Shown here piece after piece: positions 4,646-56,296 of a stretch of 64,000 bases of DNA. Position 1 is the stretch's first letter, and every line of letters begins with the position of its first letter. A model generated the notes under the pieces. The model was not told where the DNA came from. It searched no databases and worked only from the letters and a program-made list of their open reading frames with translations. The stretch is from Candidatus Scalindua sp. (GTDB lineage Bacteria > Planctomycetota > Brocadiia > Brocadiales > Scalinduaceae). The position numbers were made by a program, and so were the translations under genes. The DNA is taken from the NCBI GenBank assembly GCA_031316155.1, contig JALDRB010000009.1, forward strand, positions 1-64,000, in the 5' to 3' direction.

Positions 4646-7386
4646 TTAAATTGCGGCCTGAGCCGCAGCTAAACGTGCAATTGGCACTCTGAATGGGGAA
4701 CAGCTAACGTAATCCATGTTATTTCGATGGCAGAACTCAATTGATGAGGGCTCACCACCATGCTCACCGCATATCCCGACTTTGAGATCGGCTCTTACTT
4801 GTCTCCCTTTTTCAATACCCATCTGAACGAGCAGTCCTATTCCTGATTGGTCGAGTACCTGAAAAGGATCCTTTTCCAATATGCCAAGTTGCATAAACTG
4901 TGGTACAAAAGCTCCAACATCATCTCTGCTGTATCCGAAAGCCATTTGAGTCAAATCGTTTGTGCCGAAAGAGAAAAATTCTGCATGACTGGCAATCTGA
5001 TCAGCTATTAATGCCGCCCTTGGAATTTCTATCATCGTACCAATCTTATAATTTATTTTGGTACCCTTTTTCGCAAATATCGAATTTGCTGTTTTTTCAA
5101 CTTCTTTTTTCAGGAGTTCCATTTCTCCAACGGTTCCAATAAGAGGTAGCATTATTTCCGGTAAAACTTTGATACCCTTCTTCTTCATATGAATGGCCGC
5201 TTCGATGATTGCCTGAACCTGCATTTTGTAAATATCCGGGTAGATAATACCCAGCCGGCAACCTCTTAGTCCCAGCATAGGGTTAATTTCTTGAAGACTG
5301 GAAATTTTTTCTTTGACGGCATGAAGACTCGCTCCGATTTTTTTTGCAATTTTTCTTTGTAAAGAGTCTTCTTTCGGTAAAAACTCATGCAGAGGTGGGT
5401 CGAGAAGTCTTATGGTTACGGGAAGCCCCTTCATAATCGTGAATATTTTTTCAAAATCTCCCCTTTGCATAGGGAGAAGTTTCTTTAATGCAGTAGTATA
5501 GAGGTTCTGCGCTTCATTCAGATTCTTGATAGCCTTCTTCATTTTTTCCTGAAAGCTACGAATTTTTTTACCTGGTATTTTTTCAAGGGCAGTTTCCATT
5601 TCGTCAACAATTGCCGTTAGGCTAGTCACATCACTTGCTACAAGTATCATCTGTCTGACATAATCAATTCGGCTTTCATGAAAGAACATGTGTTCAGTTC
5701 GACACAAACCGATCCCATCTGCACCGAAACTTCTCGCTCTTTTTGCATCTTCAGCGGTATCTGCATTTGTCCTGACCCGGAGCTTGCGGTATTCGTCTGC
5801 CCACTTCAAGAGAGTGTTGAAGTCTCCGCTTAGAGTTTGTTCAACAGTTGGTATTTTTCCCAAAATTACCTCACCAAGAGATCCGTCAAGAGAGATATAG
5901 TCACCTTTTTTAACGGTCTTACCGTCGACGGTAAATTCTTCCTTTTTGTAATCAATCTGGATACTGCCACATCCAGCCACACAGCAGGTTCCCATTCCTC
6001 TTGCAACGACAGCGGCATGCGATGTCATACCGCCTCTTGTTGTGAGAATACCCTGTGCCGCATGCATTCCTCCGACATCTTCCGCTGATGTTTCTATCCT
6101 TACAAGGATAATATTTTCTTTCCTGGCTGCTAGTTTTTCTGTTTCATCAGCATGAAAAATTACCTTACCAAAAGCAGCACCTGGTGAAGCGGGGAGTCCA
6201 CGGGCAATCACATTTTTTTTTGCTTTAGGATCAAATGTTGGATGGAGAAGTTGGTCCAACTGATTAGGGTCTATTCTGTTGAGGGCTGTTTTTTTGTCGA
6301 TGAGTTTTGCTTTAACCATATCGACGGCTATCTTTACGGCAGCTTGGGCGGTTCGTTTCCCGTTTCGCGTCTGGAGCATAAACAACTTTTTATCCTGGAT
6401 CGTGAATTCCATATCCTGAAGATCTCTGTAGTGTTTTTCCAGATTATTTCTTATGGTAACCAGTTTTTTATACGCTTCAGGCATTTTTTTCTGTAGCGCT
6501 TGTATCGGTTGAGGGGTACGTATGCCTGCTACGACATCTTCACCTTGTGCATTCATTAAGAATTCACCATAAAATTTGTTCTCTCCGGTTGATGGGTTTC
6601 TGGTAAAACACACTCCTGTTGCTGAATCGTCTCCTCTGTTACCGAAGACCATTGCCTGAATATTTACTGCAGTACCCAGCAGCCCCTTGATATCGTATAT
6701 TTTTCTATATTTTATAGCTCTCGGATTGTTCCAGGATTCAAATACTGCAATAATTGATTTGCGTAATTGCTCTTGAGGATCAAGGGGAAATGTTGTTTTG
6801 GTTCTTTTTTTATAAATGGCGATGAAGTCTTTGCAGATGTTTTTTAACTGTGCAGCGCTCAGTTCTGTATCATTAGTTAATTGATACTTTTTCTTCCATT
6901 TTTCCAGTATCTCTTCAAAGTCATGGTGCTTCATGCCCATAACAACATTACCAAACATGGAGATAAACCGTCGGTAAGCGTCCCATGGAAATCTTTCGTT
7001 TTTGGTAATCTTCGCAAGACCTTCTGCGGATTCTGGAGTTAATCCCAAATTTAGCACCGTATCCATCATCCCCGGCATAGAGGCAGCGGCGCCGCTTCTG
7101 ACAGATACTAAGAGGGATTTTTTGGGTCACCCAATTTTGCTCCCATTAACTTTTCAAGACGTGAAAGGTTTTTGTTGATTTCAATTTGAAGACCTGCCGG
7201 GAAAGTCTTATTATTATTATAGTAAGCTTTGCAAGCTTCTGTCGTAATCGTAAAACCTGGAGGCACAGGGATTTCAAGATTAGTCATTTCTGCAAGATTA
7301 GCACCTTTACCACCAAGTAAGGACTTCATCGATGCATTACCCTCAGCATGCCCGTCACCAAAAAAGTAAATATACTTCCTTTTCAT
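4646..7386 (-). CDS. ppdK: Pyruvate phosphate dikinase (one apparent frameshift)
   Basis: The enzyme interconverts pyruvate, ATP and Pi with PEP, AMP and PPi. The first 92 codons (from 7386) give the ATP-grasp start (LLGGKGANLAEMTN, VPPGFTITTE) and end at a stop at 7108. The rest reads from the next frame beginning SVRSGAAASMPGMMD and runs to 4646. Conserved parts follow: the phospho-histidine motif GGMTSHAAVVARGMGT and the C-terminal PEP-binding barrel with GLCRTEHMF and CGEHGGEP. One missing base in the CCC run near 7112 explains the break, since adding a C restores the family motif. Total length (about 913 codons) is normal. This looks like a consensus error more than a real pseudogene. 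The ribosome binding site ggag lies just upstream of the ATG at 7386. Confidence 0.9.
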
Positions 7387-9492: not shown

Positions 9493-10397
9493 TTGGATAA
9501 TAATATCCCTTATCTTAAGCAACTTGAATCTGAGTCCATTCACATTATTCGGGAAGTGGTTGCGGAGTTTAAAAATCCGGTTATGCTCTATTCAATAGGG
9601 AAGGATTCGGCAGTAATGGTGCGCCTGGCCCAAAAAGCTTTTTTTCCCGGTAGTATTCCTTTCCCTCTTATGCATATTGATACCGGTTATAAATTCCCAG
9701 AGATGATAGAGTTTCGTGATCGGTTTGTTAAGGAAATTGGGTGCAGGCTTATTGTTGAGCGAAATGAGGAGTGGATCAAGAAGGGCGCACATCCGCAAAA
9801 GCTTGGTGTAGACAAGTGCTGTGCCAAGCTAAAGACTCATGGTTTACTTGATGCGATAAGAAAATACAAGTTTGATGCAGCCTTTGGCGGAGCACGCCGG
9901 GATGAAGAAAAATCCAGGGCGAAGGAAAGGATCTTTTCTTTCAGAGACGAATTTGGGCAGTGGGATCCCAAATATCAGAGACCGGAAGTTTGGAACCTCT
10001 ATAATTGCCGCATTAATGAGGGAGAATCTATCAGGGTGTTCCCCTTGAGTAATTGGACGGAAATGGATGTTTGGTACTACTTGAAAATCGAGAAGATACC
10101 CATTGTGCCGATATATTATGCTCAGGAGAGGGAAGTTGTTGATAGAGGGGGGTATACTCGTGCCATACAATAATTTGGTAACTCTTAAACCTGGCGAAAA
10201 AGTAGAAAAGATTATGTGCCGGTTTAGAAGTTTGGGTTGCAGTCCCTGTACCGGGGCTGTTCAGTCAGGAGGCAAATACCATTGATAAGATAATCGATGA
10301 AGTTGAAAATGCGACCAAATCTGAGAGGGAAAACCGCATTATTGATCTTACTACGGACAGCTCTATGGAAGACAAGAAAAAGGAGGGATACTTCTAG
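9493..10397 (+). CDS. cysD: Sulfate adenylyltransferase small subunit (two apparent frameshifts)
   Basis: CysD is the PP-loop ATP sulfurylase subunit that adenylates sulfate to APS together with CysN. The first 226 codons read normally ([17 protein letters not shown] is the PP-loop; [12 protein letters not shown] is conserved) up to a break at about 10150. The next frame gives [17 protein letters not shown] and [14 protein letters not shown] up to about 10272, and a third frame gives the C-terminus [11 protein letters not shown] to KKKEGYF at 10397. Both breaks fit one extra G, in a run of six G at 10146-10151 and in tcaggaggc at 10267. Consensus error is likely. The start is a TTG with ggag 8 bases upstream. 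cysNC starts 2 bases after the stop. Confidence 0.9.
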
Positions 10398-24466: not shown

Positions 24467-24576
24467 AAATATAAACTATACTCATCTTATAATGGTTTTC
24501 GGATAGAATCCGAAATAACATTGAGCGAGTAAAGTCCTCTGCGCCTTTTGTCCGAAAGAATATTAGGAGAAATGAA

Positions 24577-25628: not shown

Positions 25629-27278
25629 AATACTGTTCGGCACGGAGTTTGATAAGGTAGTTCAACAGATAAGACACTGTGAGATTATTGTACTAATTGG
25701 TTGTGAGAATACAAGTGAATACCTAATATATGACGGGACTGAGAAATGAAGACATACCACTCCCACGAAACTTTCAAAGGTGAAAGATTCCTTAAGAGTG
25801 ACTATTTGTTTTGGTCTTCTATTTTAAGACTTTCGATATGTTTCATGAGCTCTTCCATGGTAGCCCATCCCTGGAAGTACAGACAGATCATCTCGAAGGT
25901 TCGTTTCGTGGGTTTACGTCCAGTCCATAATCTGATTAATAGACTGGCAATCAGGGCACAGTAGACTTGAATCTGTATTCCGTTTTGTGAAAGAGATAAC
26001 AGGTGCTGGCGCCCCAGTATACACTTAAACCACCTAAAGAAGATTTCAATTTGCCAGCGATAACGATAGATAAGTCCGATAAGTTCTGCCGGTAGGTCCA
26101 TACGGTCAGTGGCAATTAACAATGTGTGTTCCGGGGAGTTGGTTCTGAATGTCTTTTTGCTGGAGACACGAGATTTTCGTTTATATCCTGAGAGTACTCG
26201 TTCATCATAATAGTTAATTTGTATAATTCTTATAGGCCTGGAGATGACGTCTCGTTTTTGTTTACACCCAAGTCTGACAGTTCGATCAAACGCTACTCCT
26301 GCTTCAAGGCATGCTTTACTCAGGTGATGTTCTTCTATGATTTCATAACTTGTGTTATCCTGTACACGAACAACAAAAGAACTCTTTTTTTGAATAATGC
26401 TCTCCAGCAATTGATATTCTCTATAACCGGCATCCAGGCAATAGAGTTTACCGGAAGATAATGAAGATTTTAGTTGAGTTCTTTCGTTCGCATTAGCATC
26501 AGTAACTTGAGCTCTAAGAGGAACTCCTTTAAGGACATCAAATTCTAGATGCATCTTTACAGCTCGATGGTCTTTATCAAGCCATAAGGCCCATAGCATC
26601 TTTGGGAGTGCTTTGAGCAAAGTGCCATCTACAGCAACTACGGTTACGTTAAGATCTTGTAAACGCTTGTCCAGGTTCAAAGAACCAACCTGGCTGGCAA
26701 GTTTGCTAATAATGGATGTAAGGAGTTCTGGGTCAAATATTCTGCTTGCAGCCGAGAGACTTCCCAGACTGGTTCTTTTAATGCCAAGCTTACTTTGTAC
26801 ATTTTTTAAAGTGCTGGCCTTTTGTATTGAACGTAATGCAGTAAGAATTGGATTAAAGAAATATAGTAACGTAAGGCTTACACGTATTGATCGTAATGTA
26901 GTGTTCGATTGAAACAATCGGCATGGTCATGAAGCTGCTTAAGCAGTGGTTTAAAAGAGCGTAGGATGGATAGTTTTTGTATGTCCTGCTCCTTGATTTT
27001 TTACCCTTGTTTGTATCATCCGAAATACTCATAAATGGAATTGATAACAGGAGCAGGGAAGAAAATCAACAACAAAATATTATATAAGCTATTGATATTA
27101 CATAAGTTATGAAAATTTACGATTTGCGACATTAAAAATATTTTCAGATATTTTTTTAACGAAGTGGTTTGCGTAAAAAAACAGAAAAGAAATTTCGGCA
27201 TGCTTGACTGAGAACAGATATGGAGAGAGTAGATGAGTTCAAAAAAAGCGTTCTCAAACACCGTGCCGAACAGTATTG
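25629..27278 (-). mobile_element. IS4-type insertion sequence
   Basis: About 1650 bases bounded by terminal inverted repeats: CAATACTGTTCGGCACGGAG at 25629 and its complement ending CCGTGCCGAACAGTATTG at 27278; over 28 bases 25 or more match. It holds one transposase gene on the minus strand. No clean short target duplication is visible. A further outer inverted pair (CAATCGGGGGACAyCAT at 25417 and 27295) brackets this element together with the small element on its left, pointing to nested insertions. Confidence 0.75.
25802..27032 (-). pseudogene. IS4-family DDE transposase with N-terminal frameshifts
   Basis: The main frame (25802-26917) gives 371 residues with DDE features: VVAVDGTLL (first Asp), YCLDAGYREY (second Asp) and the IS4 YREK-like segment YRYRWQIEIFFRWFK (Glu). 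Upstream, a second frame encodes IKEQDIQKLSILRSF followed by KPLLKQLHDHADCF, which clearly belongs to the same protein, and a third frame gives a start MSISDDTNKGKK at 27032. Thus the N-terminus is broken twice, near 26886 and in an A-run near 27001. The full protein would be about 409 residues. Either the element is decayed, or these are indel errors. Confidence 0.8.
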
Positions 27279-30131: not shown

Positions 30132-30503
30132 TTACTTTTCATTTTTCCTTCGGGGAAGTACTATTTCTTCCTGAGTATGCTCCTCTCTTATGCTTGTTGC
30201 TTGTATGTGCTCACTTCCACAATCAGGACAACGTCTCGGATCAGAAACCTCTATTTCTTCATCTATATGCTCGGGCTTTGGCCGTGTTACTCCTTTATGT
30301 CCAAATGGCGCACCTTTTTTCCTGGGTTCAGGACGTACTCCATACGCATCTTTTTTCTTGTTAGTCTTGCCGTAGATATTTTTCCTTAAATAGTCTATCA
30401 TCTCTTTAAGGGTTTTGTTTTCCTCCTTTAACTGACGATTTTCCCATTTTAACTCTCTGTTCTTTTTCCTGAGTTCCTTAATACGAAGTTCCTTTTCCAT
30501 CAC
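30132..30503 (-). pseudogene. IS66-type transposase, N-terminal fragment
   Basis: The 123-residue product begins with a leucine-rich coiled coil (ELRKKNRELKWENRQLKEEN), then GAPFGHKGVTRPKP and a zinc-binding CPDCGSEHI, the normal N-terminal part of IS66-family transposases. It stops at 30132, so the catalytic domain is missing. It overlaps the stop of the DUF4338 gene by 4 bases (ATGA), so the two were one transposon operon. Confidence 0.75.
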
Positions 30504-31426
30504 ATCTTCTCCACCAACCCCCGTCCGAATGGCCTATAGGCCGGGCAGGCGACAAAGTCATTCTGGCGGGTGAGTTTTTCCCGAAACTCATTGCACAGAG
30601 GATATACGAATACCTTCTTTATCTTCCCGTGGTATGTATGGGTATTTCCCCGTTTCGCGTTCCCTTTTGTTTGACCCAGGTATGTCCAATTTGCCGCTTT
30701 GTAGCATGTCCCATGAAACTTGTCTTGTTCTACAAATGTTTCCAATAAATAAATGGTATGTCCATATCGCTTTGCCCAATCTTCTCGTATTCGCCGTATG
30801 CTTAAACCGAGAACATGACTCGCTAAGAATTTAATCTTAACCCATGGCAAAATCAAAAATCGAATATTGTTCACTATCCCACAAAGATTCTTATCCTTTA
30901 TCTCTTTACTCCACCCAATCCACGTATCACGTGCCTCTAAAGACCATGCCGCAGATCCCCAACCCAAGAGAGCCACCGGCCTGTCATCAATGTATGCTAT
31001 GTACTTGAGATATTTGCCAACAATTATCTGATATCCCTGGTAGTGATAGCTGTGGATGATCCTGTTCCAGAGTTTATGTTCCTGCGGCGTGGAAAGACAT
31101 TTTAGCTCCAGCGATGGATGGTATTTAACCATTCCTGTAAGAGGAAGAATATCGAGTGCTATTTCCTCTATCTTTTTCTTTTCATTGTGTGCAGAGTTAA
31201 GGCGGGGAGGTAATTGGATCAACCCTTCTCTTTCTAAAGAGAGTAACAGGTAACGGCAGGACATGTCTTTGGTGTTTCCATTGGGCTGGTACCATTTCCA
31301 ATGATGGCAAAGCATGCGGGATATATATTTACGGCCTTGTGGGAAATGTGTTTTTATTACAGTGCGGATGATTACTATGTCAGCATCACTGATTTCACGC
31401 CCTCTTATAATACGTTTGTTTCTCAT
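30500..31426 (-). CDS. DUF4338 (DruA-like) protein associated with an IS66-type element
   Basis: A 308-residue protein: an N-terminal winged-helix-like part (ADIVIIRTVIKTHFPQGRKY, SCRYLLLSLEREGLIQLPP), then the DUF4338 core with KYIAYIDDRPVALLGWGSAAW, RDTWIGWS, NNIRFLILPW and YLLETFVEQDKFHGTCYKAANW. This family is often labelled DruA-like because one member belongs to the Druantia defence system, but most members travel with IS66-type transposons, as here. I favour a transposon accessory role. The ATG at 31426 gives MRNKRIIRG; longer upstream frames run into the neighbouring gene. Confidence 0.75.
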   Translation of the reverse strand: MRNKRIIRGREISDADIVIIRTVIKTHFPQGRKYISRMLCHHWKWYQPNGNTKDMSCRYLLLSLEREGLIQLPPRLNSAHNEKKKIEEIALDILPLTGMVKYHPSLELKCLSTPQEHKLWNRIIHSYHYQGYQIIVGKYLKYIAYIDDRPVALLGWGSAAWSLEARDTWIGWSKEIKDKNLCGIVNNIRFLILPWVKIKFLASHVLGLSIRRIREDWAKRYGHTIYLLETFVEQDKFHGTCYKAANWTYLGQTKGNAKRGNTHTYHGKIKKVFVYPLCNEFREKLTRQNDFVACPAYRPFGRGLVEKM

Positions 31427-31532
31427 ACATGAGGGTATACCACAAAAGGGAAGGGGACGCCAGCTTTTTTTGAGTGGCAGAAAATTAATATTTGAAAACA
31501 GCCGGAGAAGGGTGTAAAGAGAGGTTGACCGA

Positions 31533-32801
31533 ATGGCTAATATATTACGTTGTAATTGTGAGGCCCCCTGTTCCGACCGCGATAACGAGAATACCTTTAA
31601 TATCCGTATTGACACTACGAATATTAAAGGTATAATACCCGCTGTGATAGATAGGCAAGAATACATATATCAAGCAGAAAAGGCTATTTCCAGATCACCA
31701 ATAACGGCGCTACTGGGGCCGCGTCAATGCGGTAAAACGACCTTGGCAAGAGTGATTTGCAAGCGTCAGCCAAGCACTTATTTTGACCTTGAAAGTCAGA
31801 CTGATCTTCGCAGACTGGCAAATCCAGAGATGATTTTGGCACCGCTTTCAGGCCTGGTGGTAATTGATGAAATACAGACTAAGCCTGATCTGTTTGCAAC
31901 ACTGCGGGTCGTAGTAGATAAGCCGGAAAACAGATGCAGTTTTTTAATCCTTGGAAGCGCCTCACCGCAAGTGATAAGAAATGTTTCTGAAACCCTTGCC
32001 GGCCGTGTGGAGTTTGTTGATATGGCAGGCTTTGATTTGACAGAGCTTGGCGCGAACAGGTGGAAACAATTGTGGGTCAGAGGTGGATTTCCCCGTTCGT
32101 TCCTTGCTACTGACGACCAGGACAGTTTTGCATGGCGTGAAGGCTTTGTTCGCACCTTTCTTCAACGTGATATTCCACAGCTCGGCATCAAGATTCCTGC
32201 TCAAGCTATACGAAGATTCTGGACGATGCTCGCCCACTACCATGGTCAAATATGGAATGCTTCGCGTATTGGCTCTGCACTTGGCATTAATGACAAGACG
32301 GCTCGCTCCTACCTGGATATTTTGACCGAAACATTTATGATTCAACAACTCCAGCCCTGGTACGAAAATATTAGCAAACGACAAGTGAAATCACCTAAGA
32401 TATACTTTCGAGATACGGGATTACTTCACAGCTTGCTTGATCTGAGGGATTTTCATGCTGTTACGGGACATCCACAAGTTGGGGCGTCCTGGGAAGGTTT
32501 TGCAATGGAACAGATTATGAGAACATTAAGGCCGTCACAGGTGTTTTACTGGGCAACATATGGTGGAGCAGAACTGGACATCTTTACTGTTATTAATGGG
32601 AAGAGATATGGAATTGAGTTCAAATTCAGTGAAGCTCCGGGCAAGACAAAATCAACAGCCATTGCTATCGATTCGTTAAAGATCGACAGGCTACTCATAG
32701 TCTATCCCGGTGAAAAAAGTTGGCCCGTAAGCGAAACGATCTCTGTTTATCCGATATCTAAGGCAATTAAGTTTTTGGTTGGATTAACAAAAGGAACATA
32801 G
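31533..32801 (+). CDS. DUF4143-type AAA ATPase
   Basis: Up to 422 residues. From about residue 50: Walker A LLGPRQCGKTTLARV, Walker B VVIDEIQTKPDLF, then GSASPQVIRNVSETLAGR, and a C-terminal DUF4143 domain with KSPKIYFRDTGLLHSLL, SWEGFAMEQI and a nuclease-like YWATYGGAELDIF / YGIEFKFSEAP. These predicted ATPases are common in accessory DNA and have no proven role. A promoter-like sequence at 31609-31636 lies inside the first codons, so translation may really begin at GTG 31644 (AVIDRQEYIYQ), giving 385 residues. It is transcribed away from the IS66/DUF4338 fragment. Confidence 0.8.
   Translation: MANILRCNCEAPCSDRDNENTFNIRIDTTNIKGIIPAVIDRQEYIYQAEKAISRSPITALLGPRQCGKTTLARVICKRQPSTYFDLESQTDLRRLANPEMILAPLSGLVVIDEIQTKPDLFATLRVVVDKPENRCSFLILGSASPQVIRNVSETLAGRVEFVDMAGFDLTELGANRWKQLWVRGGFPRSFLATDDQDSFAWREGFVRTFLQRDIPQLGIKIPAQAIRRFWTMLAHYHGQIWNASRIGSALGINDKTARSYLDILTETFMIQQLQPWYENISKRQVKSPKIYFRDTGLLHSLLDLRDFHAVTGHPQVGASWEGFAMEQIMRTLRPSQVFYWATYGGAELDIFTVINGKRYGIEFKFSEAPGKTKSTAIAIDSLKIDRLLIVYPGEKSWPVSETISVYPISKAIKFLVGLTKGT
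31609..31636 (+). promoter_or_regulatory. Consensus sigma-70 promoter inside the 5' end of the DUF4143 frame
   Basis: TTGACA at 31609-31614 and TATAAT at 31631-31636, spaced by 16 bases. A 12-base inverted repeat (acctttaatat...atattaaaggt, 31593-31630) overlaps it and may act as an operator. If used, it would favour the GTG at 31644 as start. Confidence 0.55.
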
Positions 32802-42722: not shown

Positions 42723-42795
42723 TGTTTTTTCAATTGGCCGAATACTCATACTGGTAAAGTTTTTTTATGCCGTAGCGTAGGAGTTGGGTGGATTA

Positions 42796-44187
42796 ATGAA
42801 GAGTAGGGTTTTGATTGCTGACGATGAAGAGAGAATAATACAGAATGTTGAGCTAATTTTTGAGGAGATTGAAGAGGTAGAGTTGGTGAAGGCGCATGAT
42901 ATCTCTTCGATTGTTGATTATATTGATTGTGAGAGGGTTCATTTGATTATTACCGATCTTAGAGTTCCTAAGATGGGAAGGCTTGAGTTTTTAAAGTATA
43001 TTAAGTCGAAAGATTCTGAGTTGCCGATTATTGTGATTACCGGAGATGGGTCCGTTGAGACAGCTGTAGAAGCCATGAAAGGGGGGGCATTTGATTATAT
43101 TGCAAAACCCTTTGAAGGTGATGCTTTGGCTTTGGCGGTAAAAAAGGCTATTAAAATGAGGTCGCTCACAATTGAAAACAGGTATTTGCGGAATGAGTTA
43201 GAGTCACATTATAATTTTGGAAGCATTATCAGTAATTCACCAAAAATGCTGGAAGTTCTTTTGTTGGCTGGTGATGTATCAAGAACTGATTGTACCGTAT
43301 CGATTTTTGGTGAAAGTGGTACCGGGAAAGAGCTTGTTGCAAGAGCTATTCATTTTAATAGTTTGAGAAAGAGCGGTCCGCTTATTACGATAAATTGTGC
43401 CGCATTACCAGAGAACTTGTTGGAAAGTGAGCTTTTTGGGTATGAAAAAGGGGCGTTTACTGGTGCCGAAAGGAGCAAAAAAGGTCGTTTTGAATTAGCC
43501 AATGGCGGTACACTGTTTCTCGATGAGATATCTGAGATGAATCCCGTTATTCAGGCTAAGGTTTTAAGGGTTGTTGAAGAGAGAGAGCTCGAAAGGCTTG
43601 GTGGCTCCGATACGGTAAAAGTTGATGTACGAATTATTTGTGCTAGTAACAAGGATCTGAGTGAGCTCGTAAAGAAAGGTGAATTTAGAGAAGATCTTTT
43701 CTACCGCATAAACGTGTTTCCAATTCAAATTCCACCACTTAGGGAGAGGCCAGAGGATATATTGCCACTGGTTTACTCCTTCGTTGAACGTTACTCAGTT
43801 AAAATGGGAAAGGTGCCAATGAAAATTTCAAAAAATGTTGAGAGGTTGTTTTTGTCGAATTTCTGGGGTGGAAATATCAGGGAGTTAAAAAACTGTATTG
43901 AGAGAGCTGTGATTTTATGTAAAGGAGATATGATATCGGAGGAGCATCTGCCCTTGAATTTAGTTAAATCCATTTCAGGGAATGGCAAGGTGGGAGGTAA
44001 GGAGAAAAAGGGGAGAATGTTAGATATTGAGATACCTCCGGAAGGTATATGCCTTGAGGAGGTTGAAAAGCAAATTGTTTTACAAGCCCTGAAAAAAAGT
44101 AATAATAACAAGACAAAAGCCGCTAAACTGTTGGGGCTTACGAGAGGGACTTTGCGGTACAGATTGGAAAAATACAGTAGCAATTAA
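42796..44187 (+). CDS. Sigma-54-dependent response regulator (NtrC family)
   Basis: 463 residues in three domains. Receiver (1-120): acidic pair Asp9-Asp10, phospho-acceptor Asp54 in LIITDLRVP, and Lys in YIAKPFE. AAA+ sigma-54 interaction domain (about 135-370): Walker A GESGTGKEL, the GAFTGA loop, FLDEISEMN, and RINVFPIQIPPLRERPEDI. C-terminal Fis-type helix-turn-helix (NNNKTKAAKLLGLTRGTLRYRL). It should activate -24/-12 promoters when phosphorylated. No sensor kinase is in the window. A matching promoter lies about 190 bases downstream, before the hydrazine synthase genes, so these are the probable target. The ATG at 42796 fits the family start. Confidence 0.95.
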   Translation: MKSRVLIADDEERIIQNVELIFEEIEEVELVKAHDISSIVDYIDCERVHLIITDLRVPKMGRLEFLKYIKSKDSELPIIVITGDGSVETAVEAMKGGAFDYIAKPFEGDALALAVKKAIKMRSLTIENRYLRNELESHYNFGSIISNSPKMLEVLLLAGDVSRTDCTVSIFGESGTGKELVARAIHFNSLRKSGPLITINCAALPENLLESELFGYEKGAFTGAERSKKGRFELANGGTLFLDEISEMNPVIQAKVLRVVEERELERLGGSDTVKVDVRIICASNKDLSELVKKGEFREDLFYRINVFPIQIPPLRERPEDILPLVYSFVERYSVKMGKVPMKISKNVERLFLSNFWGGNIRELKNCIERAVILCKGDMISEEHLPLNLVKSISGNGKVGGKEKKGRMLDIEIPPEGICLEEVEKQIVLQALKKSNNNKTKAAKLLGLTRGTLRYRLEKYSSN

Positions 44188-44373: not shown

Positions 44374-44390
44374 TTGGCATACGATATGCG
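44374..44390 (+). promoter_or_regulatory. Sigma-54 (-24/-12) promoter before the hydrazine synthase genes
   Basis: TTGGCAT-ACGA-TATGCG: the GG at 44376-44377 and GC at 44388-44389 are exactly 10 bases apart, as in the consensus TGGCAC-N5-TTGC. It lies 76 bases before the Cys-rich gene and just downstream of the sigma-54 regulator gene. Confidence 0.65.
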
Positions 44391-44465: not shown

Positions 44466-45062
44466 GTGGTTAAGTTTAAAAAAGATTTAGTTGGGTTTAT
44501 TTTGACAATGTTTGCTGTCTTGTTTTTGGTGTCTTTAACTATAGGACAACATAACAAGGTGTACGCTGGGGATGAGGGTGGTCCATGCCCGAAAAAAAAG
44601 ATACAGTTACATTTTTGGTGTCCGATCTGTAAAGAGATAAACGAATTTAAGGACTGTAAAAACATCAACTATATCTGGGATTTCAAGAAATATGAATCCG
44701 GCTCTGAAGAGTACGATGAAGCAAAAAAGCACCAGGATTTACCTGAAGCCTGGGGATGTGAGAGGATTAAATTTAGTTGTATTGAGAAGGAGTGTGAGGC
44801 ATATGAAAAATGCATGGCACATCCTGGTGGATGCGATGTCTGCATGGGCGATATTGCTAGTAAGAAAATCTGGTCCAAGATAGACTTTAAATGTACCGGA
44901 TGTGGAAAGGTTTTTGATCATCCAGGGAAAGGCCATACGCTCGATGAAAAAGTCGAGTATATTCCTACGTTGAAGACCCCCGGTGATTGTGAAGAGTGCG
45001 GTAAACCGCTTGAGACTGTTTGTCAGAAGTCCGGTGAATGTCCTCATATTCCGGATTTCTAA
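44466..45062 (+). CDS. Secreted cysteine-rich protein next to hydrazine synthase
   Basis: 198 residues. An N-terminal signal peptide (FILTMFAVLFLVSLTIG, likely cleaved after KVYA) is followed by a polar domain with about 17 cysteines. Four CXXC pairs occur: CPIC, CDVC, CTGC and CEEC, none followed by His, so they are not heme c sites. The pattern suggests zinc ribbons, other metal sites or disulfides. I recognise no family. It starts right after the sigma-54 promoter and 36 bases before hzsB, so it is probably co-expressed with HZS and acts in the same compartment; a maturation or assembly role is an inference. Start GTG with gggaggtg upstream. Confidence 0.75.
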   Translation: MVKFKKDLVGFILTMFAVLFLVSLTIGQHNKVYAGDEGGPCPKKKIQLHFWCPICKEINEFKDCKNINYIWDFKKYESGSEEYDEAKKHQDLPEAWGCERIKFSCIEKECEAYEKCMAHPGGCDVCMGDIASKKIWSKIDFKCTGCGKVFDHPGKGHTLDEKVEYIPTLKTPGDCEECGKPLETVCQKSGECPHIPDF

Positions 45063-45098
45063 ATTTAATTGGTTTCGTTAACTTTTAGGAGGTGAAGA

Positions 45099-46224
45099 AT
45101 GAAAAAAGGTTTGTTGTGGAGTATCCTCGGAGCCGGTATGTCGGTTTGGCGTTAGTGCAGAGTGCTGGTGCCGGTTTTATACAGGTACGAGGGTGAGAAC
45201 TGAGCATCCTTCTCCGTTTCACGTGTCTGTTTCTGCTGATGGCAGTATGTTGTTTCTTGCCAATCAGTCAGGTCACAGCGTGACTTTTGTTGATACTCGA
45301 TCAAGAAAAGTTGTCGGTGAAGTACCGGTTCAGGTGCAGCCTGAGGCTACTGTAAGCACCAGGGACGGCAGGACACTGTATGTTTGTAACGCTGAGAGTG
45401 ACAGTGTTTCTGTGATTGATATTGGTAATAAGGCAGTTATCAAGACCATCAAGGTAGGAGACTGGCCATGTAGTAAACTGTCGAATGACGGTTCTAAAGC
45501 ATATGTGTGCTGTTCAGGCAGTATGTGGAACACCGTTGACATCATAGATACAGCCATGAATAACAAGATCAGGAGATAAGGACATCTGATTATGGTCCAA
45601 GGGATATAGCGATTTCTCTGACGGGAAGACAGCTGCTGTTGTCCTTGATACAACGGGTAAGATCAATAGATGTGTTGATTTTGTAGACCTTGCATCGGGA
45701 AGGTTAAGGGACAAGGGTTATTCACGGTAGCGCTAATTTCAGGGGTGTCAGTATACGCCTGATGGTCAGTATGTTCTCTTCACCATGGAGCAGCCGAAGA
45801 ACTGGTTGCCGGTTTGTGAGGCAGAGAATGCTCAGATATTCTCGAACAACGTTGCTATGGTAGAGACGAAACCAGGTGGAAAGGTAGCGCAATTCCCGTT
45901 GGATGAGCATAACAATTACGATGGGAATCCTTATGGTATAGCAATCTGCCCTGAAGGTAAATATGTGTACATCGGTGTGAGAGGTATGCACAGGGGTTAC
46001 GATTCTTGACCTGGCAGAAGATGACACAGATTATTCAGGCGAGCTCACAGGAGGAAGCTGGATGATATGAAGATGATCTGACGGTTATGATAGATTATCT
46101 GGTTAAGAGGGTAAATGTAGGCCTCGGGCCAAGCTCAGTTGCGCTGTCACCTGATGGCAAGATTTGCTATGCAGCAAATTATTTTTCAAATAACGTATCT
46201 GTGATCAGGACTCCGCTTGATTGA
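45099..46224 (+). pseudogene. hzsB: Hydrazine synthase beta subunit, interrupted by several frame breaks
   Basis: HZS makes hydrazine from NO and ammonium; the beta subunit is a heme-free seven-bladed propeller. The ATG has aggaggtg upstream and a signal-like MKKGLLWSILGAG; the frame then breaks near 45143 and again near 45190. The longest intact part (45193-45579) has propeller repeats such as SVSADGSMLFLANQSGHSV, TLYVCNAESDSVSVIDIGN and KAYVCCSGSM. After further breaks come DYGPRDIAIS, YTPDGQYVLFTMEQPKN, GIAICPEGKYVYIGVRGMH and, at the end, SSVALSPDGKICYAANYF. At least six indels are needed. The peptides match my memory of anammox HzsB, so the identity is firm; whether the breaks are real is open. 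Confidence 0.85.
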
Positions 46225-46293
46225 TTTTGAGTGGAATGAGTAGTGAGGAATTGGGTGTGTTTATTCATATTAATGGTTTTTAGGAGGTAGGTA

Positions 46294-47313
46294 ATGAAGA
46301 AGATGTTTGTGTTGAGCTTAATTGCTACCCTGTCCCTTTTCTGTCTGACAGCAGCGGTAAACGTTGCCGATGCAGGAGAGGCTCAAGTTATAGCGACCAT
46401 ACAGACAGGACCGGAATGGGAGCCGGCTCGAGAGAGGTGAGCCGTTGACTGTACCAGAGGTACATTACAGGGTTAAGCATTCACCTTACAAAGAGTGAGT
46501 TGGTAAGGTATGGGCAGTTTCAGTTTAATGAAGATTCGTGGACGCTGCAGGGAGAGTACTCATGCGCCAGCTGCCATTATGAAAGGGCAGACAACCGGTT
46601 TGATCTGGGACCTTGGCGATGAAGGCTGGGGTAGCTGGAAGAATGCAGTATATCCGTGGCGGAAGGTATCTTCCCCGTTCAGGCATGAAGGATTTACGGG
46701 TCATCCTGATGAGATTGTAGGCGCTACATCGTCGATTGACAGGGTATGCGGACGTGACCCTGGATTCGTGTTCAGGAGTAGAGAATTTCTCACCTGAGAG
46801 ATTAGAGGCCCTGATTGCATATATCAGATCTTTAGAGTTTACGGGAAAGCCCATTCAGAAATGAAGATGGTTCTTTGACGGAAGCTCAAAGAGGGGTTGG
46901 AAGATATTCAGCGATCCAAAGGTTGGTTGTGTGGAGTGTCATCCGGGTAATCCTGATAATCCGAGCGTTGTTTAGCGATGCTCAGACACATGATGTCGGA
47001 ACAGGGCGAATCGGAGCAGACGGTTTCAGGACAACACCTGGAGCAGTATTCAACACGAGTGCTCTGGAAGCGGGTGTAGATCCTTATGGTGAGGATTACG
47101 ATGTGCCGATTATCGGACTTGATCTGGTTAGGAGTTTGATACCCCGACATTGAGGGATATCTACGCATCAGGAACCTATTTCCATGATGGCAGCGCTGAA
47201 ACACTGATGAATACGGTTGACAACACGGTGACAACAAAGATATGCACGGTGTTACATCTCATTTGACGAAACAGGAGTTGCAGGACCTTGTTGAGTTTAT
47301 GAAGGCTCTGTAA
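46294..47313 (+). pseudogene. hzsC: Hydrazine synthase gamma subunit (diheme), interrupted by several frame breaks
   Basis: The gamma subunit resembles diheme cytochrome c peroxidase/MauG. It has its own taggaggt site and signal peptide (MFVLSLIATLSLFCL). The frame breaks at about 46437, but pieces continue: LTVPEVHYRVKHSPYKE, YSCASCHYER (first heme), GLIWDLGDEGWGSWKNA, FRHEGFTGHPDEIVGATSS, FSPERLEALI, VGCVECHPGN (second heme), ALFSDAQTHDVGTGR, FNTSALEAGVDPYG and, at the end, LTKQELQDLVEFMKAL. At least six indels are required. Separate start and signal peptide show hzsB and hzsC are not fused here. Consensus error and decay are both possible. Confidence 0.85.
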
Positions 47314-47329
47314 GGTTTTTTTTGCAAGC

Positions 47330-47353
47330 GATAGCCCCCTAAAAGGGGCTATC
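47330..47353 (+). terminator. Hairpin between hzsC and hzsA
   Basis: GATAGCCCC and GGGGCTATC form a perfect 9-base stem with a 6-base loop. There is no T-run after it, so it may stabilise the upstream mRNA end or act as a processing site more than a terminator. Confidence 0.55.
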
Positions 47354-47430
47354 ACTTCATTTATTATGTAAGAAGAGGCAATGTTATTTTGTTTAATTTT
47401 ATATACGTGAGGAAAGGAGAAGCCCAACTT

Positions 47431-49851
47431 ATGAAAAAGGGATTTTTTTGCGACAATGGCGTTAGTTGGTGCTGTGGCGATAAGTGGACTGTTTAGTTCA
47501 GCGAGCCAGGCCCAGGTAATGGTAGGTGGGTACAAGCCGGGAAAGGCAATATGGGGTGACTATTGGGGTATGTCGAAGGGATACAGGGGAATATAGAATC
47601 TGTAGTCTTCACACAATCGAAACCTACAAGTTCTGGTGATCCATTACCACCAATATCCAAACTATGTTTTCCAAAGATAGCAGGATAGTTTCATATAATA
47701 TGAAAACAAAGAAGTTTGCAGGTGTTAACAAAGGATTTTCAAAGTGCTTTCGATCCTTGCTTGAATTGGGATTGTTCCAGGGTTGCATTTGCCGGTATTC
47801 ACAAAAATGGCGGTGGATGTCAAATCTGGGAGATGAATATCGATGGTTCAGAGGTGAGGCAGTTAACAGACTTGCCTGGAACAGCGAGAAGCCCGATATA
47901 TTACGCCGCTGGTGCCATTGAGCCGGGTAAAGGAAGAGTTATTTCCCGAGACAGGTATTTCGAAGGTGACTGGAAAGAACGCGGTGAAGTAGAAAAGACC
48001 GGTTTCTTGATCATTTCCTATTCGCCCGCTGATGCAATGGATGAGTATTATAATCCATACTCTTTCAGTCTCTACAGGCTTGATCCACAGGGCGGTAACA
48101 TGATGGACAGAATCTGTGGTCATAAACTTATGGGTATCGATATGCCGAGTGTTAATACTGTGGTTGATAAAATCACGTATAACGTAAGTTCGGATTTTGA
48201 TCCAGCATTAACTCGTGACGGTAACATCATGTTCAGCAGCACACAGGCTAATGGCCCTCGTAACAATGGTAAGGGTAGTGTATGTCTGATTGTTGATAAC
48301 TGGGATGGTTGTTATCCAAGGCACATCTACGGTAACGAAGTCACTGAACAGCCTTCTACTGCAAAGATAAATGCACGAGAATCTGTTGATGGTTATCTGT
48401 ATTATATTGAAGCCCTTGATTATAATTCAGGTATAGGTAATCTGGCGAGAGTAAGCTGGACAACTCCTCATGCTAAAACTCAATCAAGAGTGAATAATGA
48501 CGGAAGGCTTTACAGAAGTCCTTTCCCTGTACCAGATGGTAGGCTCATGGTATCATCAGCAGAGAGAGGTGGCTTCGGTCTGTTCTGGTTTGATTTAAAT
48601 AAAGGTACCGTTGGTGAAAAAGTTTATGATGATGCTGAATGGAACGATCACCAGCCTCAACCTGTCTATCCAAGATATAAACCAAGATGGATTAACTCTT
48701 TTACCGCAGGTAAGGAGTTTGGTGTTACTACAGTGACCTATCAGCCTTTCGACCAGGTTAATGTTGAGGGTTATCCTCACTCTTGGAGTACAACGATCTG
48801 CTTTGATACTACTTTGACAAATCTCCCAATCGGTCCATATCCACATCAAAGGGCCAAGGAGATGAAGCATGGTGATGTTAAGGCAATCAGAACGCTGAAT
48901 GCTATCGAAACAAAAGAACCTGATTCTTCACGGTTCATCGTAGGTGCCGGTAAACATCTGCTTGGTGGTGAAAGATCGAGCAGTAACAGTGGTACCATGT
49001 TTACTCAGAGACGTATGTTCGGTTATCAGTATGTAGAAGATGACGGTTCAGTAGTAAGTTCACATCCAGGAGATGAGCCTTACTGTGCACAAATTCTTGA
49101 TGAGAATGGTATGTCAGTACAGACACAATTATCATGGGCATATGTCAGGCCTTATGGTGGTAGAATTTGTACTGGTTGCCACTGGGGTTCTTATGATAAA
49201 AGAGGTTATAAGAATATTCATACTAAAGCGCTCTATAACTGGTGGTTTAGTGATTTGAGTCATTATGATTCACCGTTTATGTGGGCTAATGTAAAGTTGG
49301 ATAAGAATGGTAAATACTCAGGTGTAAAACATGGTGAGGACGTAGTTGTGCCTTCTGATGTTTACTATGGTGGTGCATCTGGTACAACATCAGCTAAGGT
49401 AGAAGGTCTGAACATTGATAAGTTAAGGACAGTCGATTTCAGAAGAGATATTCAGCCTGTTATTGATGCAAAATGTGCTAAATGTCATACGTCAGGTCAA
49501 GCCCCAGAACTTGGTGGAAGCACAAAACCGGTTTCTGTTGACGGTATCGCTGCTTTTAGCGTTTCTTATAACAGCTTGCTAGCACCTCACAGAGGCAAGG
49601 ATAAGAACATTGGTGGTAGGTATGTTAATCCTAGCGCTGCAATCAATAGTCCACTTATCTGGAGGCTTTATGAGGACCAGTTGTCACAGTTTGAAACGGT
49701 AAGTAATACCTTCCCACTTGAAGGAAGGGTTATGCATAATAAAATCCTTACTCCTGAAGAGAGATTCCTGTTTGTTGAATGGATAGATTTGGGAGCACAG
49801 TGGGATAATATTCAGGGACCAGATCCATATCCTGGATACCAGGGAAGATAG
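47431..49851 (+). CDS. hzsA: Hydrazine synthase alpha subunit, 5' end frame-broken
   Basis: The catalytic subunit of HZS, about 805 codons. The ATG (ggaaaggag upstream) gives MKKG; a run of seven T near 47447 shifts the frame. The next frame shows the signal and mature start MALVGAVAISGLFSSASQAQ, GGYKPGKAIWGDYWGMSKGY. Further breaks follow near 47590, 47665 and 47740. From there the frame is intact to 49851: FDPCLNWDCSRVAFAGIHKN, a propeller domain, GGRICTGCHWGSYDKRGY and VIDAKCAKCHTSGQAPELGG, giving the two heme c sites expected for HZS-alpha. A strong terminator follows. The intact 87 percent argues for a functional gene and for errors at the 5' end. Confidence 0.92.
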
Positions 49852-55987: not shown

Positions 55988-56296
55988 TTTTTTCGACTAT
56001 CAAGAGACTGGCAGTTGTCATGCCTGGATATTATACTAAAACCGATTTGGTTTTCGGTTTTACCTGTCTGTGTGCATCGCACAGGCAGGTCCGAAAATCA
56101 TTATGAGATGAGTATATCAGGTTGGTTGACAACTACTTAGGTTAGAGATGGGTATAGCTGCCTCCAATTTTGACGGAGGAAGCCCTTTCGAAGAAAAAGG
56201 AGAGCATTTGCCCCTTGAATTTGAACGGTATTTTTTCAATCTATAAGAGTACAATTTTTTTTGTGGGGAAGCACTAGCTCGTTGGGAGTTTGAAGT
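55988..56296 (+). other. 309-base gap between HAO-like and Rieske genes
   Basis: Holds a hairpin, acctgtctgtgtg near 56063 with cgcacaggcaggt ending about 56091, not followed by T. No gene or clear promoter seen. Confidence 0.45.

Follow-up and report, generated by a model that had tools for sequence, protein, structure and literature searches.

Hydrazine synthase is essential for anammox, and automatic annotation would report this key anammox enzyme as broken in the Ca. Scalindua genome analyzed here. Does the organism carry disrupted hzsB, hzsC, and hzsA genes, or do the frame breaks belong to the published sequence? The window, i.e., the whole stretch of 64,000 nucleotides that was analyzed, is C26:1-64000 from a Scalinduaceae genome of 4.06 Mb (26 contigs, 92% complete), which is labeled G000 in our comparisons. 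Ca. Scalindua sp. SCAELEC01 was taken as the nearest relative compared. The features at issue are as follows.

45099..46224, plus strand: hzsB, hydrazine synthase beta subunit, consensus frame broken (SCAELEC01 orthologue; the copy on contig C22 matches 5c2v_B)
46294..47313, plus strand: hzsC, hydrazine synthase gamma subunit, consensus frame broken (SCAELEC01 orthologue; the C22 copy matches 5c2v_C)
47431..49851, plus strand: hzsA, alpha subunit, broken over its first ~280 bases and intact beyond, single copy (matches 5c2v_A)
45107..47712, plus strand: very probable indel-error patch with a net total of 24 frame breaks across hzsB, hzsC, and the hzsA start (frameshift-aware and copy alignments)
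45077..47316, plus strand: repeat unit in common with C22:84265-86509, minus strand (same-genome DNA search)

Frame breaks in the hydrazine synthase genes

Using frameshift-aware protein-to-DNA alignment of the proteins of the SCAELEC01 contig against the window, we found 24 frame breaks between 45.1 and 47.7 kb (8 in hzsB, 11 in hzsC, and 5 in hzsA), twice the minimum of twelve indels given in a preliminary description of this DNA. The breaks in hzsA (47446, 47580, 47647, 47672, and 47712) all lie within its first 280 bases; the frame is open from 47716, and no break was detected downstream of 47712 to the end of the gene. As also described previously, the remainder of hzsA and the HAO-like genes tested are intact, with 0 breaks relative to the SCAELEC01 orthologues, and the gene upstream of the broken stretch has an open frame in the raw sequence. 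The control set comprised 34 other genes or gene parts and the remainder of hzsA (~36 kb) and contained three breaks, at 7112 and, in cysD, at 10150 and 10271, giving an odds ratio of about 120 for the concentration of breaks in the patch relative to the other tested coding sequence (P about 2e-26). None of the tested genes from 10.3 to 45.1 kb or beyond 47.7 kb has a break; the test used no SCAELEC01 match at 14.1-18.5 kb, at 25.2-32.9 kb, and in the last kilobases of the window. The second of these intervals includes a transposase-like frame of 371 aa (25802-26917) and another frame, of 388 aa (30500-31666), whose nature is uncertain; no counterpart of either was found on the SCAELEC01 contig.

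Origin of the breaks

The search for an intact hzsBC elsewhere in the assembly, proposed in the preliminary description, was successful. At C22:84265-86509, hzsB and hzsC are both intact (378 and 341 aa) and match hydrazine synthase subunits over nearly their full length (5c2v_B, E 1.5e-162; 5c2v_C, E 2e-189), as does the hzsA of the window (5c2v_A, E 0). The near-identical repeat extends over 2.24 kb, from 22 bases 5' of the hzsB start to just past the hzsC stop. No match was found in plasmids. In a three-way alignment with SCAELEC01, the window copy differs from the C22 copy by 17 deletions and 7 insertions, and at all 24 sites the C22 copy has the SCAELEC01 length, leaving the window copy as the odd one out. 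Twelve of the 17 deletions are in runs of 1-3 bases. A run of seven T is indeed present at the 47446 break (47443-47449; six T in SCAELEC01), as noted before; most breaks lie outside long homopolymers. Among 11 mismatched columns between the copies, 10 adjoin indels or form part of compound sites, and the lone isolated substitution is at 45697. Even if substitutions and indels arose equally often (1:1), at most one substitution among 27 events would have a probability of 2e-7. Because 17% of bases differ between the C22 copy and SCAELEC01, hzsBC does accumulate substitutions with time. The frame-restored window proteins are 89% (hzsB) and 93% (hzsC) identical to those of SCAELEC01, compared with 91% and 94% for the intact C22 copy.

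This indel-dominated difference from the intact copy argues for long-read consensus error and strongly supports the earlier suggestion of a poor consensus over a multicopy region. We conclude with high confidence that the frame breaks are consensus errors over a duplicated hzsBC and that the window locus is in reality a normal, unbroken hzsB-hzsC-hzsA operon. Short reads were probably unable to place hzsBC, which is present twice as a 2.24-kb near-identical repeat, so that the window hzsBC and about 400 bases of hzsA would have been published as uncorrected long-read sequence, possibly through a long-read gap fill or because short-read correction passed over the stretch. Both the technology behind the reads and the step of assembly that left the errors are inferred. 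The patch has sharp edges: the first break, at 45107, is 30 bases into the repeat, and the last, at 47712, is about 400 bases past its end. This one-sided overrun of ~400 bases, together with the cysD breaks in single-copy sequence, indicates that the repeat alone is not the source of every error. A second copy of the hzsA start or of the cysD break region was not found in the genome. Real breaks in the hzsA start would inactivate an essential gene of which no other copy was found, which speaks against decay. The breaks at 7112, 10150, and 10271, in single-copy sequence and two of them in cysD, are probably consensus errors too.

The preliminary description had offered decay as its alternative, in which the window hzsBC would be a pseudogene and the cell would rely on the C22 copy. 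Loss of one hzsBC would be tolerable with an intact copy elsewhere; however, a pseudogene would be expected to carry substitutions alongside indels, and 24 indels with one isolated substitution are unlike a pseudogene of any age. Moreover, the restored peptides match the intact ones in conservation and give no sign of relaxed constraint, the breaks run on into the single-copy hzsA, and it is the window copy that sits in the conserved operon beside hzsA, while the C22 copy lies outside such an operon. We consider decay very unlikely. Hardly more probable is that the cell has a single hzsBC and that the C22 copy is the window copy misassembled into the wrong place. The near identity of the copies and the presence of just one hzsBC in SCAELEC01 would fit this explanation, but the regulator-hzsB junction seen on C22 recurs in the independent assemblies G011, G012, G013, and G015, and the genes flanking the C22 copy are intact and lie on the contig with the 16S rRNA gene. 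Finally, the breaks could be real and overcome during expression, through programmed frameshifting or RNA editing; the good conservation of the restored peptides is the one point in favor. Against it, 24 breaks fall in 2.4 kb, insertions and deletions are mixed, as are their contexts, and no break occurs in the second copy or in any relative whose sequence was read across these genes. We regard bypass as extremely improbable, and far more so than either decay or misassembly. Consensus error remains the explanation that we adopt; the interest of this region is the second locus rather than the breaks. Left uncorrected, these errors would mislead copy counts and any survey with hzsB or hzsC as its marker.

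The second hzsBC locus and its putative regulation

Upstream of the hydrazine synthase genes, the main cluster in the window contains the following features.

42784..44187, plus strand: intact gene for the sigma-54-type response regulator belonging to the main hzs cluster (domain search)
44375..44390, plus strand: putative -24/-12 (sigma-54-like) box TGGCATACGATATGCG, also present ahead of hzs in most of the relatives examined
44466..45062, plus strand: intact conserved gene that separates the regulator from hzsB, with no Pfam match and by position like kuste2858 (PMC12053348)

On C22, genes for a histidine kinase of 767 aa and a sigma-54 response regulator of 458 aa precede hzsBC (L033:6269-12638). 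hzsA was not found within 20 kb around this hzsBC, which is thus not part of a three-subunit cluster, nor was it found by DNA or protein search anywhere in the genome (92% complete) beyond the window. Several genera of the Scalinduaceae share this layout. In G000, G011, G012, G013, and G015, hzsB comes after the regulator; in G010 (L083:633-3522), hzsC comes directly after the regulator and hzsB is missing; and in G016, the contig ends ahead of any hzs gene. G004 has the regulator without hzsBC, and its second hzsBC adjoins an HAO-like gene. SCAELEC01 shows no second hzsBC and no close regulator homologue at the cut-off used. In G015, the second locus (L079:5543-9728) has two tandem hzsB-like genes followed by hzsC.

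In all eight regions compared, G004 included, a palindrome of the TGACCA/TGGTCA type and a GG-N10-GC box occupy the same alignment position 3' of the regulator. The second-locus regulator carries a sigma-54 interaction domain, which, combined with the upstream GG-N10-GC box, is the sequence signature of sigma-54 control, and the main-cluster box at 44375 resembles the second-locus box. Based on these sequence features, we infer that the hzs loci may be under sigma-54 control. C22 also carries a dispersed repeat of ~140 bases with predicted hairpins (L033:1942-2101), of which partial copies are present in the window (24477-24553 and 56032-56116) and about 40 copies in SCAELEC01; an Rfam search of the window gave no match, this repeat included.

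In an hzsC tree, the two copies pair within the genome in G000 (99.6% identity), G015 (94.6%), and G004 (99.1%), whereas no such pairing is seen in G005, G008, G010, and G011, and G016 is placed neither way; the partial hzsC sequences of G005, G008, G010, and G016 leave some identities uncertain. Given this pairing, and given that the second hzsBC follows the same regulator in different genera, the data suggest, as the simplest reading, that an old second locus has been homogenized by gene conversion in G000 and G015. In G004, whose second copy is located elsewhere, a recent duplication is as likely as gene conversion. The literature searched contained no link between hydrazine synthase and gene conversion. 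An alien origin of hzsBC, considered because marine Scalindua fuse the two genes, was rejected: they are unfused in the SCAELEC01, rubra, and sediminis lineages too, and the hzsC tree groups the present copies with SCAELEC01.

Altogether, we lean toward a model in which the Scalinduaceae have an old hzsA-less hzsBC with its own kinase and sigma-54 regulator that allows the beta and gamma subunits to be made independently of alpha, and in which gene conversion equalizes the copies in some lineages and thereby causes assembly failures. An hzsA-less hzsBC with its own regulator poses the question of whether the supply of beta and gamma is controlled apart from that of alpha.

Comparison with known systems

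Genes in long-read assemblies are usually broken by indel errors, most of them deletions (PMC12007338). The errors described here are similar in that they are mostly deletions, many by short one-base runs, that break frames without substitutions; however, those errors are spread genome-wide, whereas here they are mainly in one repeat and its edge. In the announcement of the Ca. Scalindua brodae genome, two copies of hzsBC prevented their placement (PMC4290996). There, as here, hzsBC is present twice and beyond short-read resolution; in contrast, the S. brodae hzsBC is fused and on a separate contig, whereas here the genes are separate and both loci are placed, one of them filled with errors. 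The contigs of G012 and G013 end 135 and 195 bases, respectively, into hzsB at the second locus, and it is likely that the duplicated hzsBC also breaks other Scalinduaceae assemblies. In S. profunda, the normalized transcript signal of the fused hzsBC is about three times that of hzsA (68.2 versus 22.8; table 2 in PMC3655542). Two copies could contribute to this excess; a plain difference in expression suffices too.

Multiple HZS copies as such are already known (PMC11104535, PMC12998229). The hzsA-less hzsBC arrangement was not described in the literature searched, outside of which most subscription papers fell, and the one paper in that literature that mentions both hydrazine synthase and sigma-54 deals with the main cluster (PMC12053348). 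In Kuenenia stuttgartiensis, the hydrazine synthase cluster is kuste2854-2861 and shares with the window the order of electron-transfer genes, sigma-54 regulator, conserved small gene, and hydrazine synthase genes; this lineage differs from it in having an extra hzsA-less hzsBC elsewhere, behind another sigma-54 regulator (PMC12053348).
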